A stretch of DNA of 64,000 nt, from NCBI RefSeq assembly GCF_012844235.1, contig NZ_JABAGR010000002.1:310001-374000 (forward strand), written 5' to 3'. Below the pieces are notes generated by a model. It saw only the letters and a list, made by a program, of their open reading frames with translations, ran no database searches and was not told the DNA's origin. This document shows positions 57,865 through 63,016 of this stretch, piece after piece; position 1 is the stretch's first letter; each line of letters begins with the position of its first letter. Origin of the DNA: Parafannyhessea umbonata (GTDB lineage Bacteria; Actinomycetota; Coriobacteriia; Coriobacteriales; Atopobiaceae). A program made the position numbers and the translations under genes.

Positions 57865-57901
57865 TGTCAACGTTGACATAGAACGGTTGTTCGTATAAGA
57901 T
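57865..57901 (+). promoter_or_regulatory. recA promoter with SOS-type operator and a second palindrome
   Basis: TTGACA (57873-57878) and TAAGAT (57896-57901) are 17 bases apart. The spacer holds GAACGGTTGTTC (57881-57892), which fits the Gram-positive LexA box GAAC-N4-GTTC. The -35 is the right half of a perfect 14-base palindrome, TGTCAACGTTGACA (57865-57878). LexA binding between -35 and -10 would block transcription; induction by DNA damage is inferred from the family pattern. Confidence 0.8.
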
Positions 57902-57930
57902 TGCGACTGGTAGCAGAGAAGGGGAGGGCA

Positions 57931-59031
57931 ATGGCCAAGAGCAAGGGTTCCGTGCGCGAGGTGCACGAGAAGACGTACGGAGAAGAGCGAGACAAGATGA
58001 TCGACGCGACCACGTCCGAGATCATCAAGAAGTTTGGCAAGGGCTCCATCATGAGGTACGGCGATGATGGCCCGGACCTCGAGATCGAGGCCATTCCGAC
58101 TGGCTCGCTCGCGCTGGACGCCGCACTCGGCATAGGTGGTGTTCCACGCGGCAGAATCATAGAGATCTACGGTCCCGAGTCCTCGGGAAAGACGACCCTC
58201 TCCCTCGAGATCCTGGCAGAGGCCCAGGCGATGGGTGGCGTGGTCGCATTCATCGACGCGGAACACGCCCTCGACCCAGGATATGCGGCGAGGATCGGCG
58301 TCGACATCGACGAGGTGCTGATCTCCCAGCCGGACACGGGAGAGCAGGCGCTTGAGATTTGCGACATGCTCGTTCGCTCCGGCGCCATCGACGTCGTCGT
58401 CGTTGACTCCGTTGCGGCACTCGTCCCGCGTGCGGAGATCGAGGGGGAGATCGGCGATACCACGGTGGGACTGCAGGCGCGTCTCATGAGCCAGGCGCTT
58501 CGAAAGCTCGCGGGCTCCCTTGCGAAGTCCAAGACCACGTGCATCTTCATCAACCAGCTTCGCGAGAAGATCGGCGTCATGTTCGGCAACCCCGAGACCA
58601 CGCCCGGCGGCCGAGCCCTCAAGTTCTTCTCGTCGGTGCGCATGGACATTCGCAGGATCGACTCCATCAAGAAGAACGGCGACGTCATCGGCAACCGCGT
58701 CAGGGTGAAGGTCGTCAAGAACAAGGTGGCTCCCCCCTTCAAGCAGGCGGAGTTCGACATAATGTACGGCACGGGCATCTCCAAGGAGGGCTCGATCCTG
58801 GACATGGCCGTCGACTACGGCGTCGTGGACAAGAGCGGCTCGTGGTTCACGTACGAGACGGAGCGCCTTGGACAGGGGCGAGAGGCGGCAAAGGAGTTCC
58901 TCGCGGAGAACCCCGACCTCAGGGACGAGATCGACCAGAAGGTGCGCGTCGCCTGCGGTCTCGCGCTCGGCGACGAAAGGGTCGGTGAGCCGGTCTCCAA
59001 GCCGGCCGATGGCGAGGGCAAGGAAGCTTAG
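57931..59031 (+). CDS. recA: Recombinase RecA
   Basis: The 366-residue recombinase pairs homologous DNA and triggers LexA self-cleavage. Walker [10 protein letters not shown] (about 79-87), [31 protein letters not shown], the L2 loop ([20 protein letters not shown]) and [12 protein letters not shown] are intact. The C-terminus is acidic/Gly-rich. ATG 57931 follows GAAGGGGAGG; an upstream in-frame TTG at 57901 overlaps the -10 box. recX starts two bases after its stop. Confidence 0.98.
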
Positions 59032-59033
59032 GC

Positions 59034-59690
59034 ATGGAGTCATGGGAGCTCAACCTCCCGAAAAGGGGCGAGGCTCGGCTCGGCGCGCGAAAGGCGCGCG
59101 CCGAGCTCGTCCTTTCGGAGGAGGGGTCGGAGCGAAGGCTGTCGATTCCCGTCGTGGTTGCGAAGCGTCTGAAGGGGATTGCCGACGAGAGGCCCTGGGC
59201 GGCCGATAGTGCGCGTTCCGTCATGGAGCTGGAACGGGACCTGGAGAGGAAGTGCTGCTCCGAGCGGGCGGAGTCGTTGCTTAACAGAAGGGACTACTCG
59301 ACCGCCGAGATGAGGGCGAAGCTTCTGGAGGACGGGTTCTATGGTCCAGTCGTCGACGAGTACCTCAGGCGCGCGAGCGACGTGGGGTTGCTTGATGACG
59401 CGAGATACGCCGACGCCTTCATACGCTCAAAGGTGTCGTCAGGGTGGGGCGAGCGAAAGGTGTCTGCCGCGCTGAGGGCGAGGGGCGTCGACGCAGGATG
59501 CCTCGACGGCTGGCCATTCGAGTACTTCGACGAGGTCAACGAGTTCGAGCGCGCCTTGCAGATCGCATCCAGGAAGACGTTCTCGGAGCGGAACAGGTTC
59601 TCCAAGGTGGTTCGCTTCGTGATGGGGAGAGGTTTCTCGGGGGCGGTTGCATATGGCGTGGCCCACAAGATTTGTGACGATGCAGAGTGA
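59034..59690 (+). CDS. recX: Regulatory protein RecX
   Basis: The 218-residue helical protein tunes RecA filaments. It has three-helix repeats with RAESLLNRRDYSTAEMRAKL, LLDDARYADAFIRSKVSSGW and GERKVSAALRARGV, which are the family core (about 80-155). The first 70 residues, with ARAELVLSEEGSERRLSIP, are less conserved. It is co-transcribed with recA, so it is under the same SOS operator. Confidence 0.9.
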   Translation: MESWELNLPKRGEARLGARKARAELVLSEEGSERRLSIPVVVAKRLKGIADERPWAADSARSVMELERDLERKCCSERAESLLNRRDYSTAEMRAKLLEDGFYGPVVDEYLRRASDVGLLDDARYADAFIRSKVSSGWGERKVSAALRARGVDAGCLDGWPFEYFDEVNEFERALQIASRKTFSERNRFSKVVRFVMGRGFSGAVAYGVAHKICDDAE

Positions 59691-59894: not shown

Positions 59895-59951
59895 GGTTCT
59901 GCCAAGAATGGCAGTCTCCTGAACCACTATGCACGTTCATACATCAAGGAG
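59895..59951 (+). promoter_or_regulatory. Candidate switching hairpin in the rny leader
   Basis: GGTTCTGCC (59895-59903) can pair with GGCAG (59910-59914) and GAACC (59921-59925), leaving TCTCCT (59915-59920) as a bulge. CTCCT is complementary to the rny ribosome site AGGAG (59947-59951), so an alternative fold could hide it. Regulation is inferred only from complementarity. Confidence 0.4.
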
Positions 59952-59958
59952 CCCAGAC

Positions 59959-61509
59959 ATGGAAATCGTAATTGGAATTGTCTGCCTCGTCGTAGGCGCG
60001 CTCGTCACCTATTTCGTGGTCACGAGTGGTAACAACTCGAAGGTCCAGGAGGCCAACAAGGCCGTCGAGGACGCGAGGGAACAGGCGGAGCGCATCGCAA
60101 GCGACGCGAAGCACGACGCGGAGACCGCGAAGAAGGCCGCGCTCGTAGAGGCGCGCGAGCAGATTCTGCAGCTGAAGCAGAAGTCCGAGTCTGACGAAAA
60201 GAAGCGCAAGCAGGAGATCCAGAAGCTAGAGAACAGGATCATGCAGCGCGAGGAGTCTCTCGACCGCAGGAATGACGCGCTCGACCGCAAGGAGCACCAG
60301 CTCTCGAGTCTCCAGGGGCAGCTAGACAAGCGCAAGAGCGAGGTGGACCAGCTCTTCCACAAGCAGACCTCGGAGCTCGAGCGCATCGCCGACCTCACGA
60401 GAGAGGATGCGCACCAGGAGCTGCTGGACAGGGTGCGTTCCGAGGCCGTCCGCGACGAGGCCCAGATCCTGCGCGAGTCGGAGCAGCGGGTTCGCGCGCA
60501 GGCTGACAAGACCGCACGAGAAATCGTCTCCACGGCCATTCAGCGCTGCGCCGCCGACCAGGCCGGCGAGATCACCGTCACCTCCGTGCACATTCCCTCC
60601 GACGACCTCAAGGGTCGTATCATCGGTCGAGAGGGAAGGAACATCCGAACCTTCGAGCAGGTAACGGGCGTATCCCTTGTAATCGACGACACGCCCGAGA
60701 CCGTCGTTCTCTCGAGCTTCAACCCCGTCCGCCGCGAGACGGCGCGCGTGGCGCTCGAGAACCTCATCGCGGACGGCAGGATTCATCCCGCGCGCATCGA
60801 GGAGATGTACAAGAAGGCCGAGAAGCTCGTGAGCGAACGCGTCCAGGAGGCTGGCGAGCAGGCTGCGTTCGACGCCGGCATCCACGACCTGCACCCGGAG
60901 CTCGTGAAGACGCTTGGCGCGCTGCGTTACCGGACGTCGTTCGGGCAGAACGTGCTGCAGCACTCGATTCAGGTGAGCGAGCTCTGCGGAATCATGGCGT
61001 CCGAGCTTGGCCTCGATCCCACTCCCGCCAAGAGGGCGGGGCTCCTCCACGACCTCGGAAAGGCAATCGACCACGAGGTCGAGGGCCCGCACGCGGTGAT
61101 TGGTGCCGACCTCTGCCGTCGCTATGGTGAGAAGCCCGAGATCGTGCACGCGATCGAGGCGCACCATGCCGACATCGAGCCCGACACCGTCCTCGACGCC
61201 CTCGTCCAGGCCGCCGACGCCATCTCGGCCGCACGACCTGGTGCTCGTCGCGAGTCCGCCGAGAACTACATTAAGAGGCTCGAAAAGCTCGAGGAGATCT
61301 CGAACGCCCATGAAGGCGTCGAGCGCACCTACGCCATGCAGGCCGGTCGCGAGCTCCACGTCATGGTTGAGCCCGAGAAGATCTCCGACGCCGAGGCCAC
61401 GGTGCTCGCCCACGACATCGCGAAGCAGATCGAGGACGAGATGGAGTATCCCGGTCAGGTGCGCGTCGTCGTGATTCGCGAGTCTCGCGCGGTCGACATC
61501 GCAAAGTAG
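59959..61509 (+). CDS. rny: Ribonuclease Y
   Basis: The 516-residue membrane-anchored endoribonuclease starts bulk mRNA decay. An N-terminal membrane segment ([19 protein letters not shown], about 3-21) is followed by a long coiled coil (about 25-190), a KH domain ([20 protein letters not shown]) and an HD domain ([29 protein letters not shown], with [13 protein letters not shown]). All metal ligands appear intact. ATG 59959 follows AAGGAGCC. It is five bases ahead of the GHKL gene, so both share the strong promoter. Confidence 0.96.
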
Positions 61510-61514
61510 CTGCG

Positions 61515-62597
61515 ATGTCCGATTCTGCGTCAAGCCTCGTGGACTTCGTCGCCTCCATGGGCGGCGAGAGGTCGCTGAGGGTAGAGGAGAACTACGGAGA
61601 CGGATTCGTCCGTCTCCGGGTTGCCGAGGCCGAAAGGCGTCAGGCAAAGCACGACATCCGCTGCATCGAGGACGTCGTGATAGAGATGCTTCGAAACTCG
61701 CGCGATGCCGGTGCCGAGAACATCTTCGTCGCGACGACGCGCGAGGGCGAGAAGCGCTACCTCACCGTCCTCGATGACGGATGCGGCATCCCGGAGGAGA
61801 TGCAGGACAGGATCTTCGAGGCACGTGTGACCTCGAAGCTCGAGTCAGTCCACATGGACCGGTGGGGAATTCACGGCAGGGGTATGGCGCTCTATTCCGT
61901 CAGGGAGAACGCCGAATCCGCACGGGTGATGTCATCGGCACCGGGACTTGGCAGCGCCATCAGGATCGTCACCGACGCAGGGACCCTTGCGGAGCGAAAG
62001 GACCAGTCTACCTGGCCGACGCTCGGTACGGACGAGGAGGGCAATCAGGTCGTCGCCACGGGTCCGCACAACATCGTGAGAACGTGCTGCGAGTTCGCGC
62101 TCGAGGAGCGGGGGAGATGCAACGTGTACTTCGGGTCGCCCGCCGAGATGGTGGCGACGGCCCGAAAGCGCGTCAAGCCTACGGTCGAAGGCTCTTCTCT
62201 ACTGTTCATCGACGACCTGGGCGAGCTGCCCGTGTTGGAGAGGATGCATGCCGCCGCGGACGCCTCCGAGCTCATGAGGGTCTCGGCGAGCCTTGGGCTC
62301 GATATGAGCGAGAGGACCGCGCACCGCATCATAGCGGGCCAGATACATCCGCAGCGGAGCGTGTTGAAGCGGCTCACGCACAAGAGCGACAAGTCGATCG
62401 AACGCGCGATCGACCTCATGAAGGACAGGCGCGGCCTGAAGATATCGAAGGGGGACGCGGAGGAATTCTCGCGCGCGGTCGAGAGGGACTTCAGGATCCT
62501 TGCGGACAAGTACTACCTGAACCTCTCGGACGAGCCGCGAATTCGCGTGTCCCGCGGAAAGATCGTCGTGACGTTCGACATAGACGAATCGGATTAG
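61515..62597 (+). CDS. GHKL ATPase of unknown function (MutL/TopoVIB-like ATP site)
   Basis: The 360-residue protein has a GHKL ATP-binding fold: N-box E57-x3-N61-x2-D64 in EMLRNSRDAGAENIFV, G1 box DDGCGIP (about 87-93), and G2 box HGRGMALYSVR (120-130). The DAGA after the N-box recalls MutL and topoisomerase VI B rather than histidine kinases. No His-phosphorylation box, receiver or membrane segment is seen. The C-terminal 120 residues (MSERTAHRIIAGQIHPQRSV ... YLNLSDEPRIRVSRGKIVVT) are basic and unfamiliar. It lies between rny and spoVS; a role in DNA or RNA metabolism is a guess. Confidence 0.75.
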   Translation: MSDSASSLVDFVASMGGERSLRVEENYGDGFVRLRVAEAERRQAKHDIRCIEDVVIEMLRNSRDAGAENIFVATTREGEKRYLTVLDDGCGIPEEMQDRIFEARVTSKLESVHMDRWGIHGRGMALYSVRENAESARVMSSAPGLGSAIRIVTDAGTLAERKDQSTWPTLGTDEEGNQVVATGPHNIVRTCCEFALEERGRCNVYFGSPAEMVATARKRVKPTVEGSSLLFIDDLGELPVLERMHAAADASELMRVSASLGLDMSERTAHRIIAGQIHPQRSVLKRLTHKSDKSIERAIDLMKDRRGLKISKGDAEEFSRAVERDFRILADKYYLNLSDEPRIRVSRGKIVVTFDIDESD

Positions 62598-62698: not shown

Positions 62699-63016
62699 AT
62701 GGAGTTTCTCAAGGTCTCCAGCAAGTCGTCCCCGGCATCCGTAGCAGGTGCTGTCGCCGGCATGGTGAAGGACGGCGTCCCGGTGAACATGCAGGCGGTA
62801 GGAGCAGGAGCCGTCAACCAGGCCATAAAGGCCGTAGCCATCGCGCGTGGCTTCCTTATCCCCACAGGCGTGGACATTTCCTGTGCGCCCACGTTTGCCG
62901 ACATCGAAATCAACGGCGACAATAGGACGGCAATTCGAATAGCGGTCTATGTCCATCGCCTGGTTCCCGCGGCTCGCACGGAGTCGTCGCCACACGAAAC
63001 AACGGAGTTGGTCTAG
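62699..63016 (+). CDS. spoVS: SpoVS-family protein
   Basis: The 105-residue Alba-like protein carries the family core LKVSSKSSPASVAGAVAGMV and VNMQAVGAGAVNQAIKAVAI, ending in ARGFLIPTGVDISCAPTFAD. It has about 20 extra polar C-terminal residues. In Bacillus SpoVS affects coat assembly and septation; its retention in bacteria without other visible sporulation genes suggests a broader role, perhaps nucleic-acid binding. AGGAGTTACAGAG precedes ATG 62699. miaB starts two bases after the stop codon. Confidence 0.92.
   Translation: MEFLKVSSKSSPASVAGAVAGMVKDGVPVNMQAVGAGAVNQAIKAVAIARGFLIPTGVDISCAPTFADIEINGDNRTAIRIAVYVHRLVPAARTESSPHETTELV

Follow-up and report, generated by a model that had tools for sequence, protein, structure and literature searches.

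The GHKL gene and its neighborhood

The gene described here is an open reading frame on the forward strand (61515..62597) of the window, i.e., the whole stretch of 64,000 nucleotides that was analyzed. It starts with an ATG and codes for a protein of 360 amino acids that carries a GHKL ATP-binding domain. Immediately 5' is rny, coding for RNase Y (59929..61509, forward strand; 712 bits with TIGR03319, for which the cut-off is 454), preceded on the same strand by the open reading frames of recA and recX (57901..59690). The rny stop codon, ending at 61509, is separated from the ATG of the GHKL gene by five bases (ctgcg). On the 3' side we found spoVS, coding for an Alba-like protein (62699..63016, forward strand; PF04232, E 7.3e-34), and then miaB. 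This gene order had been pointed out in an earlier note on this DNA, and both the open reading frames and the profile matches of the neighbors bear it out. The spoVS gene (62699-63016) is kept in the family Atopobiaceae, in which we know of no spore formation. The annotated order in Collinsella aerofaciens is rimO-pgsA-cinA-recA-recX-rny-GHKL-spoVS-miaB-miaA-hflX, and there the product of the GHKL gene is labeled merely as “ATP-binding protein.”

Judging by sequence conservation, the reading frame is not a product of chance, because the residues of the ATP site are invariant across 38 diverse orthologs, with E57 kept in 37 of them. In addition, the dN values of three pairs ranged between 0.17 and 0.25 against dS values of 0.8–1.4 (close to saturation), indicating purifying selection.

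The ATP-binding half

The GHKL (Bergerat-type) domain comprises residues 45–154 approximately (61647..61976, forward strand), as delimited with Pfam, NCBIfam, AlphaFold2 and Foldseek. The Pfam and NCBIfam matches span residues 49–164, with E values of 1.6e-10 for PF02518 and 1.8e-8 for PF13589 (Pfam). The score of HATPase_c was 41.8 (gathering cut-off 26.4) and that of HATPase_c_3 was 35 (cut-off 25), and both matched all 38 orthologs at E values of up to 0.1. The AlphaFold2 model of residues 51–160 had pLDDT values of 82–98 by block, and a Foldseek search matched it to the MutL N-domain and histidine-kinase CA domains.

The N-box, EMLRNSRDAG (61683..61712, forward strand), has the form E57-x3-N61 and reads on as NSRDAGA; by analogy with GHL ATPases, E57 would be the general base and N61 a ligand of Mg-ATP, and D64 belongs to the same box. 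The G1 box DDGCGIP corresponds to residues 87–93 (61773..61793, forward strand; D87, G91 and P93 invariant in the 38 orthologs) and the G2 box HGRGMAL to residues 120–126 (61872..61892, forward strand; H120, G121, G123 and L126 invariant). Thus N61, D64, D87, G91, H120, G121 and G123 do not vary in any of the 38 orthologs, which come from across the phylum. The N, G1 and G2 motifs of the Bergerat fold being present, the protein belongs by its sequence to the GHKL ATPase superfamily, and the intact ATP site announced in the earlier note is confirmed. Also in agreement with that note, domain searches detected neither a kinase (DHp) nor a receiver domain, and nothing resembling a nuclease or a membrane part.

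The C-terminal half

The rest of the protein (residues 156–360; 61980..62594, forward strand) forms a module that matches no recognized family and was modeled as a fragment with a pLDDT of 84 by AlphaFold2. Neither Pfam nor PDB sequence profiles gave a match to these residues, nor did any Pfam family match across the alignment. Five positions of the module are invariant in the 38 orthologs, Q164, N186, G207, R267 and R271. The whole protein was modeled from a 38-sequence alignment with a pLDDT of 87.6 and a pTM of 0.74; its significant fold matches are ATP domains, chiefly of MutL and histidine kinases (best E 8.5e-5), with TM values by query length of about 0.2–0.3. Modeled alone and compared to the PDB with Foldseek, the C-terminal half gave no match (best E 1.3). 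Hence this half, although confidently modeled, resembles in its predicted form no solved structure, and searches of Pfam, NCBIfam, PDB and folds found no full-length match of the protein to any characterized family.

A segment within this module (residues 250–273, SERTAHRI; 62262..62333, forward strand) looks like a helix-turn-helix, with predicted helices at residues 250–259 and 266–273 and a weak match to HTH_31 of Pfam in 3 of 36 members (best E 0.0024). In an hhalign comparison with XRE, the C-terminal segment outscored 100 column shuffles, yet the alignment was not in the HTH register, and the assignment to a helix-turn-helix of the XRE kind is weak. Weak matches to Cas1 profiles were also seen at residues 266–311 (62310-62447 of the window; E 0.0026 in PADLOC and 0.033 in Pfam). 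As the sole lead toward a defense system was the former, over 46 residues and judged to be due to chance, we discarded a role of this kind.

Distribution

We found the GHKL gene in 60 of the 61 genomes of Atopobiaceae (the one without it is a 57%-complete genome), always between rny and spoVS at the 56 named loci of this family, and in 149 of the 150 genomes of Coriobacteriia, of which it is a single-copy core gene. Across Actinomycetota it was present in 118 of the 297 genomes sampled, in one copy save for a case split over two contigs, and its presence is nearly all-or-none per family. A search with the A2 profile among the open reading frames of loci L117-L128 from genomes with rny and without the gene found no diverged copies. 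Beyond Actinomycetota the sample was thin (chromosomes or rny loci of six genera). One Acetoanaerobium and one Fusobacterium chromosome contained only partial GHKL-domain matches and no ortholog, and the annotated rny loci of Cytobacillus, Vescimonas, Monoglobus and Bacteroides had no GHKL gene. In Bacillota, e.g., Cytobacillus (L166), the slot between rny and spoVS that the GHKL gene fills here is occupied by a YmdB-type metallophosphoesterase (TIGR00282), an unrelated protein that is a phosphodiesterase and not a GHKL ATPase. No viral relative of the protein was found, which discards a phage gene, and the only match in the plasmid collection was a 900-kb Collinsella record containing housekeeping genes, so that we do not consider it a plasmid gene either.

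Association with RNase Y and SpoVS

RNase Y was detected in 190 of the 297 Actinomycetota genomes, among them all 118 that have the GHKL gene, while none of the 107 genomes devoid of RNase Y had it (Fisher P = 1.5e-32, a value inflated by shared descent, since the genomes are not independent). The two genes are also neighbors. In 104 of the 105 genomes with coordinates for both, the GHKL gene was on the same strand and at most about 550 nt downstream of rny (within 100 nt in 78 of the 105), these distances being taken from profile matches, so that the gaps are slightly overstated; in the sole exception it was located on a different contig. Within the sample, the GHKL gene thus occurs strictly in the company of rny, whereas spoVS and miaB are less fixed neighbors. 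Of the two partners suggested in the earlier note, RNase Y is the one favored by this strict co-occurrence and adjacency, the survey having found the rny-GHKL order conserved. The link to RNase Y is well supported by genomics; the mechanism proposed below is inferred.

The case for SpoVS, the other suggested partner, is weaker. SpoVS was found in 96 of the 297 genomes, and its gene is downstream of the GHKL gene in 85 of the 87 GHKL genomes with SpoVS on record. However, 31 of the 118 GHKL genomes gave no SpoVS match. In one family (f29) every sampled member bearing the GHKL gene is devoid of SpoVS and has the order recA-recX-rny-GHKL-miaB, and its GHKL proteins are full length, with matches that cover almost the entire family profile. 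Because this family keeps rny-GHKL without SpoVS, the firm partner is RNase Y and the link to SpoVS is secondary; we rejected a partner specific to SpoVS.

Other arrangements were observed around rny. Two families (L121, L122) have spoVS directly after rny and no GHKL gene, in one case on the opposite strand. Many Actinomycetota other than Coriobacteriia have, between spoVS and miaB, a gene for a PHP-domain phosphoesterase of about 275 amino acids (L094:7983-8801, PF02811, E 1.8e-13; the equivalents in L096, L097, L098 and L099 were judged by size and position). Downstream of rny or of the GHKL gene we also found a family of proteins of about 300 amino acids with an apparent N-terminal membrane helix (L101:6663-7574, L127:4128-5099 and L128:3817-4746), homologous to each other (E 1e-42 to 1e-21); that of L101 had no Pfam match.

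RicT without RicA and RicF

In Bacillus subtilis, RNase Y has accessory proteins, those of the Y-complex (RicT/YaaT, RicA/YmcA and RicF/YlbF), to which the GHKL protein has no detected sequence relation. The association of RNase Y with RicT is stable there only with RicA and RicF, and RicT is more widespread than the other two (PMC10470536). Within a sample of 150 genomes, PSP1 (the RicT/YaaT family) was present in 62 of the 63 with the GHKL gene vs. 7 of the 46 other genomes with rny, a tie tighter than that of SpoVS to the GHKL gene (family-level Fisher P = 1.7e-5, from a hand tally over related genomes). Seven sampled rny genomes thus have PSP1 and no GHKL gene. PF06133 (Com_YlbF, the family of YlbF/YmcA, i.e., RicA/RicF) appeared in only 2 of the 150, neither of them with the GHKL gene. 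However, control genomes outside Actinomycetota, e.g., Thermus and Thermotoga, also had PSP1 without PF06133, so that GHKL genomes are not alone in lacking RicA/RicF.

Relation to known families and alternative explanations

The closest relative of the first half of the protein, by both sequence and fold, is the MutL N-domain (TIGR00585; PDB 5x9y and 1nhh), with which it shares the Bergerat fold, the E-x3-N N-box, NSxDA, the TSK motif and the rG-AL-SI G2 box. The earlier note had considered a diverged mismatch-repair clamp of the MutL type lacking its endonuclease domain. TIGR00585 is indeed the best NCBIfam match (residues 50–164 only), MutL is the best PDB sequence match, and Coriobacteriia have no MutL, so that a replacement would fit, in Coriobacteriia alone. 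However, the score is 45.7 bits vs. a cut-off of 180, no S5/transducer, dimerization, endonuclease or other MutL C-terminal domain is recognized, the location of the gene follows rny, a different partner, and genomes of f29 contain one to three true MutLs besides the GHKL protein at separate loci. We thus reject membership in MutL and regard a clamp of this type as very improbable. As a side observation, MutL matches number two or three in most f29 genomes (e.g., G227, G199); often one of them covers the full length, while another is strong but confined to the N-terminal part. It is also unlikely, if less so, that the protein is a kinase with the GHKL fold, be it of the histidine-kinase CA or of the anti-sigma type, and phosphorylates RNase Y or another partner. 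PF02518 is the best Pfam match, many CA domains appear in the fold search (the ATP domain shares its fold and its G1 and G2 boxes with those of CckA, 5idm, and HK853), and the G2 box GRGMALYSI is like that of kinases. Yet the DHp/H-box domain with the phospho-accepting histidine is absent (no HisKA family match in Pfam), the C-terminal half is different, and the N-box, with E57 and NxxD64, is kept in 37–38 of the 38 orthologs. GHL ATPases have E and NxxD in this box, and kinases NxxK/R. RsbW/SpoIIAB anti-sigma kinases were absent among the 25 NCBIfam matches listed and are about half the size of the GHKL protein. TopoVIB/GyrB, whose S5 transducer has a conserved lysine and which works with a partner subunit, was rejected too (top6b, 17.4 bits vs. 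380.7; TopoVIB fold matches only at rmsd of at least 20). MORC/paraMORC proteins are, like this one, GHKL ATPases of prokaryotes that do not belong to the classic families, and are characterized by an S5 domain (GhXhhpXXRhl motif) and location in restriction-modification loci (PMC2292703), whereas the GHKL protein has no S5 match and resides in the housekeeping locus rny-spoVS-miaB.

Two other explanations take the proximity to rny as inherited. The GHKL gene could be conserved for an unrelated, housekeeping function, and its neighborhood would then reflect the inertia of gene order in slowly rearranging genomes. The recA-recX-rny-...-miaB order is widely kept, whether or not the GHKL gene is present. 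As recA and miaB are stable neighbors as well, such inertia may account for some of the adjacency to rny, and the distances of the GHKL gene correlate no less with those of miaB (r 0.86) than with those of rny (r 0.83). On the other hand, the gene is wholly absent from genomes without rny, no clear case of its separation from rny was found, and the rny-GHKL junction persists where other genes, such as spoVS and that of the PHP protein, are variably present; we give this explanation a minor but real chance. Somewhat less probable is an ATPase directed to DNA or the nucleoid and working with SpoVS or the recA neighborhood, the adjacency to rny being inherited synteny. The downstream position of spoVS, the presence of recA-recX upstream and the fact that, among characterized GHKL proteins, MutL proteins are the nearest in sequence speak for it, but the GHKL genomes without SpoVS, f29 among them, and the lack of any GHKL gene without rny speak against it.

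Proposed role

We consider that, in a number of lineages of Actinomycetota, the GHKL protein may serve RNase Y as a dedicated accessory factor, a reading to which we assign a probability of about one half. The protein would bind ATP through its GHKL domain and dimerize as MutL/GyrB-type ATPases do, acting as a clamp or switch, as we infer from GHL ATPases. The state of the ATP would then set the way in which RNase Y, RNA or a RicT-type partner is contacted by the C-terminal module, with its HTH-like, Arg-rich helix, and these contacts would decide when or where RNase Y cuts. Since RNase Y and PSP1/RicT are encoded in GHKL genomes and RicA/RicF-type proteins are not, the most specific role that we propose is the loading of RicT onto RNase Y. 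That in Actinomycetota an ATP-gated GHKL clamp, whose C-terminal fold would be one not seen before, takes the part that RicA/RicF have in Bacillus and loads RicT (PSP1) or RNA onto RNase Y, or positions it there, is a tentative idea that we find rather doubtful in this precise form; if it is true, we know of no earlier GHKL ATPase with a role in the decay of bacterial mRNA.

Our literature search found no paper joining RNase Y and GHKL and none describing this GHKL family. By sequence criteria, the protein represents a family that is new, although its superfamily is known, and its genomic link to rny is previously unreported. RNase Y initiates mRNA decay in many bacteria, and the control of its specificity is known mainly from Bacillota. 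Coriobacteriia are common actinobacteria of the human gut and, if the role proposed here is true, mRNA decay would be coupled to an ATP switch in them and in many actinobacterial families outside this class. The GHKL protein would then be a concrete candidate to explain the action of RicT-type proteins where RicA and RicF are missing.
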